Below are positions 31,272 to 35,743 of a stretch of DNA of 40,774 bases, piece by piece. This DNA comes from Microcaldota archaeon. GTDB lineage: Archaea > Micrarchaeota > Micrarchaeia > Micrarchaeales > Micrarchaeaceae. The notes under the pieces were generated by a model. That model searched no databases, was not told the origin of the DNA, and was given only the letters and a program-made list of their open reading frames with translations. How positions within the stretch are numbered: position 1 is the stretch's first letter; every line of letters starts with the position of its first letter. Both the position numbers and the translations under genes were made by a program. The DNA lies in NCBI GenBank assembly GCA_021789815.1, contig JAJYIZ010000005.1, forward strand, positions 1 to 40,774, given 5' to 3'.

Positions 31272-31973
31272 TCAGACTCCGTGGAACCAGAAACCCTTCT
31301 CGTTCTTCTTGCCCTTCGGTCCCGCCTTCTTGCCTGTAAGCCGTCCAAGTAAGGACACTTTCTGTGGTGCTGAAGGTTTTGCTCCATCGAGGCCTACGCT
31401 CCCAGCGTAGTCTTTCTGCCACTCGTGGAATTTCTCGAGCTTCTCCCTGTTGACCTTCTGCATCTTCTCATCCCAGTTATCCCTCATATCCTTCCATTCC
31501 TCTTTTGTATATCCGTATGGTGGATGCTCACGTATTGCTGGTGAGAAGTAAGCGTAGTTGTAGAACTCCTTAACGTAATCGTAATCCCTTTCTGATATGC
31601 TGTCCTTGTTAACATTGACGCCTTCCTTTGCAAGAAACTCCATGAGCTCCTCTTGGCTCATTTGCTCCCTTCTGTTTGGCGCACCTTTTGGATTGTATAT
31701 CACTGTTATCCTTGACTTGGCGTAGTTTACAGCCGACTTTATGACAGGCTCAAGCAAAGATAGTCTGTACTGCAGCCTTGCAGCATGCTGCGGGTCAACC
31801 ATCTCCTTCTGCGACAGGCCGCTGAATATAACAAGCTTGATTACCCTGTAGGGCATGCGGACCTTGTTGCCCTGCTCATCTGTTATGTAATCGTCTTCGA
31901 CCTTGCCCTGCTGCCTCTCCCTCTCAAGGTCTTGCTTATACTTGCTCTCCTCGTGTATGTCCCTTCTGTCCAT
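31272..31973 (-). CDS. Unknown protein with a heavy-metal-associated-like fold, partner of the radical SAM gene
   Basis: This 233-residue protein shows no catalytic motif. Residues ~43-121 read as beta-alpha-beta-beta-alpha: Arg-Val-Ile-Lys-Leu-Val-Ile-Phe; a helix; Val-Asn-Tyr-Ala-Lys-Ser-Arg-Ile-Thr-Val-Ile-Tyr-Asn-Pro; then Glu-Leu-Met-Glu-Phe-Leu-Ala-Lys-Glu-Gly-Val. This is the order of a heavy-metal-associated (ferredoxin-like) domain, but the metal-binding Cys-x-x-Cys is absent and the protein has no cysteine at all. Residues 125-190 are helical and rich in Tyr/Trp; the end is basic and Gly-rich. It starts 22 nt after the radical SAM stop, so the two are probably co-transcribed and work together. 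ATG 31973 is preferred to a TTG two codons earlier. Confidence 0.6.
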   Translation of the reverse strand: MDRRDIHEESKYKQDLERERQQGKVEDDYITDEQGNKVRMPYRVIKLVIFSGLSQKEMVDPQHAARLQYRLSLLEPVIKSAVNYAKSRITVIYNPKGAPNRREQMSQEELMEFLAKEGVNVNKDSISERDYDYVKEFYNYAYFSPAIREHPPYGYTKEEWKDMRDNWDEKMQKVNREKLEKFHEWQKDYAGSVGLDGAKPSAPQKVSLLGRLTGKKAGPKGKKNEKGFWFHGV

Positions 31974-31995
31974 TATCAAAACCTAAAGCATCAGA

Positions 31996-34038
31996 TTAGC
32001 AATCGCAGTTGCCGCATCCGCAGCCTCCCGATTCCTCTCTCTCTTCGGCGCTCCTTCCGCATCCGCAGGATCCGCCTCCAGAGCCACATCCGCAAGATTC
32101 ACCAGCCTCTTCGTGTTCGTGCGCGTGCTGCTTCTCTTCCATGACTATGTGCTTTGGCAGCGTTGCTGTCATTCCGGCTGCGTCCTGGACGACCTGCTGT
32201 GCAATCTTTGGCCTTGCGCTTGCAAAGTTAGCTACACCCCTGCCACCATTGACAGGCAGTGCAAAGTAGTCAACCATGTCAGTGTACGTCTTCCTGTAGC
32301 CAGCACTGGCCTCTATCTCTTTTATGTTTCTTGTGTACTTGTCCTTTGAATATGACCAGTTTGGATGGGTCTTCTCCCACTCCGTTGCAGGCATGCTGTA
32401 CTGCCTCTGTACCTTGTCTCTGTACATTTCAGGGAAGACGTTGAACGAGCAGAACGGCATGACCTCACCGTTTGGCTGCGCGTAGTGTATGTCGCACTTT
32501 TCAACTCTGTGTATGTCATACGTGTATTCATCCTGGAAGTGCATCATTCCTATGAACATGCTTTTCATTTGCAATTTGCCCATAGAGGCGAAGTCGTGCT
32601 TTGTGAGCACAGAGAGAAGCAGCTTTGTGAAGTTGACAGACTTCGGTTGGTTCTGTTTATCAATGAACCTATTCAAGCCTGCGACAGCCTTCAGCGCGAT
32701 GAGACGCCTCTGCAGCTTGGACTTGCCCTGCATTTCATCTACAGACCTTTGCAGGTGTTCCAGAAGTCCCTGTGCGTCAACGAACTTTGTAAGCGGTACT
32801 ATCTTGTTGTCAGAGTCTATGAACAGATAGGCACCTGCTCCGCATGCGAAGTGTATTGAAAGGTCGTACTTGTATTCACCTGTTAGGGCTTCTATGAACT
32901 TGTTTATTCCGCCTACATATGGAACGGAGAACCATGCATCCTTGCCGATCACACCGTTGGTCTGCTCTTCTATGAGCTTGATTGCACCTGGTATTGTGAT
33001 TCTCTGTTTTTCTCTCAACCTTGAAGGCATTCTTCCTACAAGAGATACAGGCTGGAAGTTGACAGCCTTCACAACATCAGAATTGTTCATAGCGAAGTTG
33101 ATTATTGCGCCAAGCTCGTGCTCGTTTATTGTCCTTATTACAGTTGGAACAAGGACAACTCCTATTCCTGCTTTTCTTGCAGCATCAAGGGCCATTGGAG
33201 TCTCCCAGTGGTTCTTTGGATTTGCACGTGGACTTACTCCGTCAAAGCTCATGTAAAGTGTGCTTACTCCAGCGTGCCTCAGCCTCACAGCAAGGTCCGG
33301 ATTAAGGCCGAGGTTTATCCCTGTTGTGTTTAATTGTATCTGATCGAAGCCTGCCTCCTTCGCCTTCTGCACTATTGCCACTATATCCGGTGCCATTGTT
33401 GGCTCTCCACCAGTTATCTGTATTGCATTTGCAGGGATTGGCTTCTGGTTCCTAAGATTCCTGAATATCTTATCAAGCTCAGCAAGGCTTGGTTCGTATA
33501 TCGATTCTCCTTCCTTTGCATAGAAGAAGCAGTACCAGCATGATAGGTGGCACCTGTTCGTTACCACAACATTAGCAAGGCCTGTGTGGGATTTGTGACG
33601 TTCGCACATTCCGCAGTCGAACGGGCAGTTTGCTCCCTTCGTGTCGCTTATATAATTAGGGTTGTCGAACCCTCGTCCATAGTAATTGTAACGCTTCATC
33701 TTCATGTACATGTCGTAGTCTTCCCAGTATTTTTCCATAGTCCAGTTGTGCTCTGGGCAGTACTTCCTGATCATGACGTTCTCTCCGTCCTTGTAGATTA
33801 TCCCATTGACGATGAGCTTGCATTCAGGGCATACGGTCATTGTCTTCTCTATCACAGGCATCTTCTCGATCTCTTCCATAGACCTGTGGTAGACTGCTAG
33901 AATAGGGTCGTTTGCGTCCTTTGAGTCGACCTTCGCGGTCGGCTTTACGTTGTTAATGTTACTTACTATATTCTGCTGTACCTCAACCTCTACTTCTGAG
34001 ATAGGTCTAGCAGCGCCTGGGTTACCTTGATTTGGCAT
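31996..34038 (-). CDS. Radical SAM protein of the MJ0619/tetraether synthase (COG1964) type with Cys/His-rich tail
   Basis: This 680-residue multi-cluster enzyme has a zinc-type site C70-x2-C73...C94-x2-H97, an auxiliary motif C138-x3-C142-x2-C145, and the radical SAM motif C163-x3-C167-x2-C170. Gly-Gly-Glu-Pro-Thr (SAM binding) and C-terminal cysteines C399, C515 and C530 (Pro-Phe-Cys-Ser-Phe-Asn) follow. This order matches MJ0619-type proteins, whose members join archaeal lipid chains into tetraethers (Tes/GDGT-MAS); a pterin methylase role was proposed earlier. The N-terminal ~45 residues look disordered. Unusual are residues 638-680, with three His then eight Cys in Cys-Gly-Cys-Gly units. 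Family is secure, substrate inferred. The ATG follows GGTGA. Confidence 0.85.
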   Translation of the reverse strand: MPNQGNPGAARPISEVEVEVQQNIVSNINNVKPTAKVDSKDANDPILAVYHRSMEEIEKMPVIEKTMTVCPECKLIVNGIIYKDGENVMIRKYCPEHNWTMEKYWEDYDMYMKMKRYNYYGRGFDNPNYISDTKGANCPFDCGMCERHKSHTGLANVVVTNRCHLSCWYCFFYAKEGESIYEPSLAELDKIFRNLRNQKPIPANAIQITGGEPTMAPDIVAIVQKAKEAGFDQIQLNTTGINLGLNPDLAVRLRHAGVSTLYMSFDGVSPRANPKNHWETPMALDAARKAGIGVVLVPTVIRTINEHELGAIINFAMNNSDVVKAVNFQPVSLVGRMPSRLREKQRITIPGAIKLIEEQTNGVIGKDAWFSVPYVGGINKFIEALTGEYKYDLSIHFACGAGAYLFIDSDNKIVPLTKFVDAQGLLEHLQRSVDEMQGKSKLQRRLIALKAVAGLNRFIDKQNQPKSVNFTKLLLSVLTKHDFASMGKLQMKSMFIGMMHFQDEYTYDIHRVEKCDIHYAQPNGEVMPFCSFNVFPEMYRDKVQRQYSMPATEWEKTHPNWSYSKDKYTRNIKEIEASAGYRKTYTDMVDYFALPVNGGRGVANFASARPKIAQQVVQDAAGMTATLPKHIVMEEKQHAHEHEEAGESCGCGSGGGSCGCGRSAEEREESGGCGCGNCDC

Positions 34039-34078: not shown

Positions 34079-34087
34079 TATTTAAAG
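34079..34087 (-). promoter_or_regulatory. TATA box for the radical SAM operon
   Basis: Minus-strand CTTTAAATA lies ~41-49 nt before ATG 34038. It predicts initiation near 34056 and a ~18-nt leader containing GGTGA. The remaining ~60 nt of the gap (to 34148) show only A/T-rich spacer following the neighbouring gene's stop. Confidence 0.55.
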
Positions 34088-34148: not shown

Positions 34149-34775
34149 TTAGTCGCCAGTGCTGCCCCTATGACTGATATTTCTAGGCGCATCTGGGTTG
34201 CCTTCTGTAAGTTCTCTAAGCTTAGCTGCATAAACTGGCACCACGACCAAACCTGCATACTTAAGCCTGAAGTCGTCATAGTGTTCTAGCAATTTTTGGA
34301 CGTCAGGATCATCAATTGGAGCAGGATGGGAACTCTCTCCACCATACCTACGCACCAGTCTCTCTGCCGTGTTTCTAGCATACTGTGCGAAAGATTCAAG
34401 CGGTACAAGATTCGCTTCAAGTTTCCTGAATTCTGCCCCGGTTCTTACCATCAATTCTGATAATCCAGGAACTTCAGCAAGTTCATAGCCTTCCCTCCCC
34501 ATTAGTCTGTAAGTCATTGGAATATCAGCTACTTCTTGGTAATAATCTTTGAAATTTTTCACTTTCAGCGCCAGTGACTCTAAATCGTCCCTAAAACCCG
34601 AAAGCCTATCAAAAAAGACTTCTGGTGCCGTTTGTCTTGATTTTCCAACAGCATTCCTAGCACCTATAAACGTTTCGTAAAGATTTCCTAGTCTCTCAAT
34701 ATTTCTCTCATCAACGCTCTTTCCTTCGATCTCTTTTCCTGGAGGAGTAGCAGCTCTAGCCCTATCTGTTGCCAT
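34149..34775 (-). CDS. Helical protein of unknown function
   Basis: This 208-residue soluble, mainly helical protein is rich in Glu, Arg and Leu, with a Pro-containing hinge near residue 153 (Ala-Pro-Ile-Asp-Asp-Pro). There is no signal peptide, membrane helix or metal motif, and I do not recognise a family. The gene is well supported: a TATA box (TATAAAAG at 34808-34815, minus strand) ~36 nt upstream, and GGTGA 5 nt before the ATG. Confidence 0.65.
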   Translation of the reverse strand: MATDRARAATPPGKEIEGKSVDERNIERLGNLYETFIGARNAVGKSRQTAPEVFFDRLSGFRDDLESLALKVKNFKDYYQEVADIPMTYRLMGREGYELAEVPGLSELMVRTGAEFRKLEANLVPLESFAQYARNTAERLVRRYGGESSHPAPIDDPDVQKLLEHYDDFRLKYAGLVVVPVYAAKLRELTEGNPDAPRNISHRGSTGD

Positions 34776-34820: not shown

Positions 34821-35711
34821 TCATCGTCTTCTGCGGCCTTTAAATCCCTCTTGCTTTCCAAAGTTTCTTCTTTTGAAATCCTGCCTTGGCTGCTCTTTCT
34901 TTGGAGTAATAGGCTTCTCCTTTATCCTCTTTATGCTCTCATCGAGGTCCTTCTTCAGCTTCTCTGCAATGAAGTTCTTCGAGAAGTAATCCGCCTTGAG
35001 TGCAATGCAGATCTTTGTGGCATAAACCCTTGCTATCCTTCCACGAATCTCCCTCTGTGCATTTGTGATATCTGGAAGTTTGAAAAGTATCCCGTACTTT
35101 GGCGGCCTGCTCCCGAACTTTATGTGCTTGAAGAGAGCCTTCTCTGCTCCAAGCAGCTGGACCGTGCCCGCAGGCATCGTAGCCAGCCTTTCTAGGGATC
35201 CTGCCTTGCTCAGCAGCTCTGCAGCTATCATGTGGTCTGTAAGATAAGTGGTATTCGGCATCAACCTTGTCGCAGCTTCCTTTATGTATAAGTCAAGCTC
35301 TTCAAGAGAGGCACCCAGCGATATAGCCAAGTTCGCAAACCCAACAATGGCCCTGGATTCCCCCATGTCCATCTTCCTTCCAATTGTCGATTGCGCTTTC
35401 TTGTAGATCTCTTCTGCCTTTGCGCTGTCCTTAATAGCCTCCTCTATCGCTCTGTCGTCTATACCCTTGTGGTTCAAAGCAATAACAAGTCTTGCAAGCG
35501 TTGTAGGATTGCTCATCCTCACTTCTGGGAAGTATATCCCGTACCATTCGCTAAGCCTCTCATAAGCTAGGTTGTATGACCTTGATGTCTCTATCTGCGC
35601 ATTAACAGCCTGCATGAGCGCGTATTCCTCGCTTTTGTAAGCTTCGCTTATACCCTGCTTTGCGCTCTTAAGCATTCGCTCTCTTATCTCTTCAAAGCCC
35701 TTCTTTGGCAT
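34821..35711 (-). CDS. nop5: Nop5-type C/D box snoRNP core protein (short form)
   Basis: Nop5 scaffolds fibrillarin and L7Ae on C/D box guide RNAs that direct 2'-O-methylation of rRNA and tRNA. The Nop domain is clear: Gly-Ala-Glu-Lys-Ala-Leu-Phe, Pro-Pro-Lys-Tyr-Gly-Ile-Leu-Phe, and Arg-Gly-Arg-Ile-Ala-Arg-x-x-Ala-x-Lys. A coiled-coil region precedes it and an Arg/Lys-rich tail ends the protein. At 296 residues it is shorter than most archaeal Nop5 (about 370-410), the N-terminal fibrillarin-binding domain being reduced or missing. ATG 35711 is chosen because the TATA box at ~35747 predicts a nearly leaderless start. Fibrillarin is not adjacent, unlike in many archaea. Confidence 0.88.
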   Translation of the reverse strand: MPKKGFEEIRERMLKSAKQGISEAYKSEEYALMQAVNAQIETSRSYNLAYERLSEWYGIYFPEVRMSNPTTLARLVIALNHKGIDDRAIEEAIKDSAKAEEIYKKAQSTIGRKMDMGESRAIVGFANLAISLGASLEELDLYIKEAATRLMPNTTYLTDHMIAAELLSKAGSLERLATMPAGTVQLLGAEKALFKHIKFGSRPPKYGILFKLPDITNAQREIRGRIARVYATKICIALKADYFSKNFIAEKLKKDLDESIKRIKEKPITPKKEQPRQDFKRRNFGKQEGFKGRRRR

Positions 35712-35743
35712 CAAAACACGCAATCAATTTTCTGTTATTAAGG

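Follow-up and report, generated by a model that had tools for sequence, protein, structure and literature searches.

Does a small archaeal symbiont make its membrane-spanning lipids or take them from its host? The question is raised by two adjacent genes on a 40,774-nucleotide stretch of DNA (contig JAJYIZ010000005.1, assembly GCA_021789815.1), hereafter the window, which is one contig of a fragmented Candidatus Micrarchaeota genome of 678,604 bases, ~90% complete, from the order Micrarchaeales (order named after PMC12892359). A preliminary description of the bare sequence had assigned the larger gene to the MJ0619/Tes enzymes, which join lipid tails into tetraethers, and had seen in the smaller one a heavy-metal-associated (HMA)-like protein without Cys-x-x-Cys. 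Its guess of a small archaeon fits the 679-kb genome. We here ask whether the larger protein is a tetraether synthase, whether the smaller one is its partner, and what the pair implies for lipid supply.

Results

Organization of the locus

Tes and the partner form a minus-strand tandem with the partner downstream (Table 1). The gap from the Tes stop codon measures 16 nt to the TTG that opens the partner ORF (235 aa) and 22 nt to the likely ATG start at 31973 (233 aa), the spacing given in the preliminary description. PheT, named from its sequence, is the convergent downstream neighbour of the pair, and upstream of Tes lie an uncharacterised ORF and then a Nop-domain (aNOP56-like) gene. The latter gene lies upstream of Tes at 41 loci, and its product in the window seems to lack the N-terminal domain. 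A TATA-like element upstream of Tes is a possible promoter of the operon.

Table 1 Features of the Tes-partner locus and its upstream neighbours (window positions).
Feature	Position	Strand	Basis or remark
Tetraether synthase (Tes/GDGT-MAS), 680 aa, predicted radical SAM enzyme	31996..34038	-	NF045702, PDB 7TOL, Foldseek
Rubredoxin-type iron site C70-x2-C73-x20-C94-x2-H97 (putative)	33748..33831	-	Aligns with M. jannaschii C9/C12/C33/H36 (PMC9433317)
N-terminal auxiliary [4Fe-4S] ligands C138, C142, C145, H148 (putative)	33595..33627	-	Aligns with M. jannaschii C73/C77/C80, H83
Radical SAM CxxxCxxC, C163/C167/C170	33529..33552	-	Pfam PF04055, E=4e-25, and alignment
C-terminal auxiliary cluster region: C399, labile Met499, C515, Tyr519, C530 (putative)	32449..32844	-	Aligns with M. 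jannaschii C338, M439, C455, Y459, C470
Helical C-terminal extension (DKYxRNxKxLE...DYFALPVN)	32248..32361	-	Conserved in the order's alignment; AF2 pLDDT ~80-86 around residues 570-600
His/Cys-rich tail, residues 638-680 (HAHEHEE...CGCG...CGCG...CGCGNCDC), 8 Cys, 4 CxC	31999..32127	-	AF2 pLDDT ~30
Partner, HMA-like putative accessory protein, 233 aa from ATG 31973	31272..31979	-	Conserved in 135 genomes
HMA (ferredoxin-like) core of partner, residues 41-132	31578..31853	-	AF2, Foldseek and CopA profile match
D60-x-x-H63 replacing HMA CxxC	31785..31796	-	CopA alignment
C-terminal FWFHG motif of partner	31278..31292	-	Co-varies with Tes CxC tail
208-aa ORF upstream of Tes	34149-34775		No Pfam/NCBIfam match
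aNOP56-like protein	34821-35723		Family-model match starts at position 117 and covers the later part only
TATA-like TTTAAATA, upstream of Tes	34079..34086	-	Read by eye; possible promoter

The large protein is a predicted tetraether synthase with a lineage-specific C terminus

The Tes ORF scored 651.7 bits against NCBIfam NF045702, above the family threshold of 450, and matched PDB 7TOL with E=1e-120. Its AF2 model is shallow (mean pLDDT 61) and was used for fold recognition only; Foldseek placed 7tol first (E=3.7e-35). A viral fold library gave no match. Aligned to the Methanocaldococcus jannaschii enzyme, with the ligand list taken from PMC9433317, the ORF retains all 12 Cys ligands, which account for three [4Fe-4S] clusters and a rubredoxin-type iron. 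H36, H83 and Met439 of M. jannaschii Tes are likewise present, as H97, H148 and M499. Tyr459, the strictly conserved active-site Tyr, is matched by Y519, and the SAM-binding Gln268, Ser271 and Arg275 by Q329, S332 and R336. Some second-shell positions are changed (R210 to N273, T273 to V334 and N108 to Y173). The multi-cluster Tes layout seen earlier is thus retained in its Cys and other ligands.

The preliminary description had proposed phylogeny as a check, and the window protein indeed groups with other Micrarchaeota Tes and with MJ0619, split at 97/97 from four plasmid-borne haloarchaeal and bacterial relatives, in a tree that had MJ0619 as its sole characterised Tes and was built without Thermoplasmatales Tes. 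The Tes proteins of Micrarchaeales form one clade in this tree. From its sequence, the ORF is almost certainly a genuine Tes.

With MJ0619 (PDB 7TOL and 7TOM; NF045702) the window protein has in common the domain order, the 12 Cys, both His ligands, the labile Met and the catalytic Tyr. It differs in ~60 extra N-terminal and ~120 extra C-terminal residues, the latter made up of a helical extension and a Cys/His-rich tail, and in being paired with an HMA-like gene. With the TrsS radical SAM (seleno)proteins (NF045646) it shares a related radical SAM core and a zinc-ribbon/rubredoxin-like start. The lineage-specific C-terminal extension, which ends in the CGCG tail, brings the protein to 680 aa. 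The helical part, lying beyond the M. jannaschii core, is conserved in the order's Tes, most of which continue into a linker with terminal CxC repeats (median 7 Cys). AF2 treats the tail of the window protein as disordered.

Two observations concern more distant family members. The three annotated COG1964-like relatives on plasmids, two haloarchaeal and one from Mycolicibacterium, each have a methyltransferase-domain gene immediately downstream, which suggests a different modification unit. In two other Micrarchaeota families the Tes-family proteins carry a single CxxxCxxC and still score above the Tes cut-off (561.9 bits for one of them); the N-terminal auxiliary cluster motif may have been lost there.

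The partner is a predicted HMA-fold protein with DxxH in place of CxxC

No Pfam or NCBIfam family covers the partner, and some partners matched NF041115 (UxxU metal-binding) and NF045703 only below threshold (best E 0.013 and 0.0015, respectively), matches that we disregarded. The AF2 model nevertheless has a core at residues ~40-130 with pLDDT above 90 and beta-alpha-beta-beta-alpha-beta topology. The leading Foldseek matches are HMA domains with probabilities of 0.99-1.00, at E-values of only ~1e-3, and a profile of 53 partner sequences searched against the PDB matched Bacillus subtilis CopA with E=5.4e-8. In that alignment the two metal-binding Cys of CopA (C1 and C2) fall on D60 and H63. 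DxxH is found in 49 of the 53 homologues, so that it is not strictly invariant, and no Cys is conserved. The fold noted earlier, with its missing Cys-x-x-Cys, is therefore confirmed, and the retention of DxxH argues that the metal loop has not simply decayed.

The beta-alpha-beta-beta-alpha-beta fold is common to the HMA metallochaperones (CopA domains, Atx1, MerP and CsoZ). Unlike these, the partner has DxxH for CxxC, is tied to Tes, and carries an extra N-terminal region, conserved C-terminal helices and an FWFHG end. By its residues it is an HMA-fold protein and not a copper or zinc chaperone, an identity ruled out by the lack of CxxC; a role as electron donor was judged unlikely, since neither conserved Cys nor other redox residues are present. 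A DNA pattern, TTYTGGTTYCAYGGN, was present as a single copy in each of three genomes out of six, always inside the partner gene; the copy at FWFHG is the only one in the window's genome.

Tes and the partner are paired across Micrarchaeales

The preliminary description had asked for the partner beside Tes elsewhere, and it is there in over 100 genomes. The partner is encoded in 135 of 295 genomes of the phylum, every one of them within the two families of the window's order. Within the order, 133 genomes have both genes, three have Tes only, two have the partner only and at least 23 have neither; contig ends explain four of the five genomes with a single member. With preset gap limits, same-strand tandems were counted in 105 of the 111 loci that hold both genes. 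Three of the remaining six belong to one genus with a moved partner, and the other three are overlaps on paper that stem from the choice of start codon or open ORF end. In the genus with the moved partner, the gene is either on the opposite strand, at a distance of 301 bp, or on the downstream side at 1466 bp, or was not found on the stretch read.

The genes flanking the pair vary across the order and include no third conserved operon gene; PheS/PheT and the Nop-domain gene accompany Tes in part of it. No partner-like gene was found near Tes of other Micrarchaeota families. Where relatives of the partner are named, the records are those of Candidatus Micrarchaeota. Among the 80 of 112 matches listed from a scan of GTDB genomes, made with patterns specific to the partner family that remote homologues could escape, all were Micrarchaeota except four records labelled Candidatus Marsarchaeota. 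These four metagenome-assembled genomes (MAGs) carry Micrarchaeota Tes-partner genes and are probably mislabelled or mis-binned. In the cultivated Ca. Micrarchaeum harzensis, the pair lies on the single 989,838-bp contig. Tes and the partner are thus a near-obligate pair across the order.

The C-terminal ends of Tes and the partner co-vary

In the 90 pairs placed on the tree, a CxC tail on Tes (66 cases) is always accompanied by WFHG at the end of the partner, and four further partners end in WFHG beside a Tes without the tail (phi 0.89). Because Fisher tests ignore relatedness, we relied on tree simulations: each character changes at least six times on the tree, and none of 4000 independent simulations at the fitted rate gave an association as strong as the observed one. 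This co-variation suggests that the two C-termini are in contact, physically or functionally. The tails are optional, since lineages that have neither of them, M. harzensis included, still have both genes. The idea of a RiPP-like system, in which the radical SAM enzyme modifies its own CGCG tail, was set aside for the same reason: many pair-keeping members have no such tail. Three features are new relative to the preliminary description: the Cys-rich tail of Tes, the DxxH in place of CxxC, and the WFHG end that co-varies with the tail.

Late lipid genes are present and G1PDH is mostly missing

The earlier suggestion that the organism makes its own tetraethers is supported in part. The window's genome encodes two prenyl (GGPP) synthases, GGGPS, two UbiA proteins (a family that also covers other prenyltransferases), CarS and two GGR-like proteins, the best of which reaches 155.2 bits, just under the cut-off of 158.8. 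From this gene content, the late steps look native to the genome. G1PDH (PF13685), by contrast with these archaeol-synthesis genes, had no match in the window's genome at its ~90% completeness; of 52 near-complete genomes of the order, two have a match and 50 do not. De novo diether synthesis is thus incomplete. araM has been credited to Micrarchaeales (PMC12892359), whereas in our PF13685 search most genomes of the order were without a match.

In the M. harzensis genome Tes, the partner, GGGPS and CarS are present, and neither UbiA/DGGGPS nor G1PDH was matched; the organism keeps Tes although its diether synthesis looks broken. Its co-culture contains up to 97% GDGT-0, the same as the host alone, and the published conclusion is that it relies on lipids of the host or on their precursors (PMC8975820).

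Discussion

Proposed role of the pair

It is very likely that the partner is a functional, dedicated partner of Tes. That the unit consists of a Tes variant and a dedicated accessory subunit is the reading towards which we lean. In this model, Tes would use SAM radicals to join the phytanyl ends of archaeol-type diethers into membrane-spanning tetraethers, and the two proteins would bind each other. The partner may care for the iron cofactors of Tes by loading, repairing or shielding the surface rubredoxin-type iron and the [4Fe-4S] clusters, with its DxxH binding a hard metal, for instance Fe(II), and the Cys/His-rich Tes tail could serve in most lineages as an extra metal-holding arm. This metal or cofactor role, the one we favour for the partner, is tentative and is given less weight than mutual binding. 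The diethers would come from the organism's own GGGPS, UbiA and GGR steps or from host-derived lipids, the latter being considered because G1PDH is missing.

In vitro, M. jannaschii Tes is active with no such partner (PMC9433317), and Escherichia coli makes GDGT with an archaeal Tes, the accessible portion of that report mentioning no such partner (PMC12042123); the partner is therefore dispensable for Tes chemistry in general. A fuller scenario, unlikely to hold in all its parts, is that a two-component tetraether synthase evolved in Micrarchaeales: Tes would have gained an iron-holding Cys/His tail, a repurposed HMA-fold chaperone with DxxH and a WFHG end would build or protect the iron cofactors in acid, iron-rich, oxygen-exposed habitats, and obligate symbionts without G1PDH (M. 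harzensis also without UbiA/DGGGPS) would weld host diethers into membrane-spanning lipids of their own.

Alternative explanations

The main rival to the metal role is that the partner handles lipid, docking Tes to the membrane or presenting diether tails, with the HMA fold as a scaffold that binds no metal. Tes must reach a membrane lipid, the CxxC has been lost, and the partner has further conserved motifs of aromatic and basic character (ARLQYRL, IREHPPYGYT, the long helix 157-193 and FWFHG). However, Asp and His at the metal-loop positions in most homologues would be needless for a bare scaffold, and we regard this explanation as unlikely.

An unrelated housekeeping role, with the partner merely retained next to Tes in the operon, would fit its displacement in one genus. 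Even there, however, it stays close to Tes. Where Tes is lost the partner is lost too, its C-terminal end varies in step with the Tes tail, and none of the other neighbours is conserved throughout the order. A housekeeping role is thus quite improbable.

The Tes ORF might instead be a COG1964 enzyme acting on another substrate, with TrsS-like or other C-C bond chemistry. COG1964-like relatives with different neighbours do exist, and the TrsS model gives 296.8 bits. This score lies under the TrsS cut-off of 490, which rules out membership in NF045646, while the Tes score lies far over its own; the equivalents of Met439 and Tyr459 are conserved, as are all clusters, and the protein groups with MJ0619 away from the haloarchaeal and bacterial relatives. 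We therefore hold another substrate to be highly improbable, and a predicted tetraether synthase remains the preferred reading.

Least credible of all is that Tes is an assembly contaminant or a recent import from Thermoplasmatales or another host: the assembly is fragmented and hosts of Micrarchaeota make GDGT (PMC8975820), but the pair recurs throughout the order and on the M. harzensis contig, which rules out host contamination, the order's Tes is a single clade, and it sits beside PheS/PheT and the Nop-domain gene in part of the order. An ancient transfer of Tes into Micrarchaeales may have occurred; the tree was without the Thermoplasmatales Tes.

Relation to previous work and significance

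Tes homologues in DPANN MAGs were also seen by BLAST by Zeng et al. 2022 (PMC8941075), and the accessible portion of that article suspects them of belonging to hosts and describes no partner, tail or order-wide conservation. The pair in M. harzensis indicates that host contamination does not explain DPANN Tes. As the preliminary description had supposed, our search of the open-access literature turned up no accessory protein dedicated to Tes. The enzyme system itself is known; the order-wide Tes variant and the partner family are undescribed.

To enzymologists the partner offers a possible factor for looking after the cofactors of a difficult radical enzyme, and Micrarchaeales become a candidate GDGT source for lipid geochemists. 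The last step of tetraether formation belongs to the symbiont itself, even in genomes that lack early steps, and the presence of the pair in cultivated M. harzensis makes the question of whether such organisms make or take their lipids directly testable.
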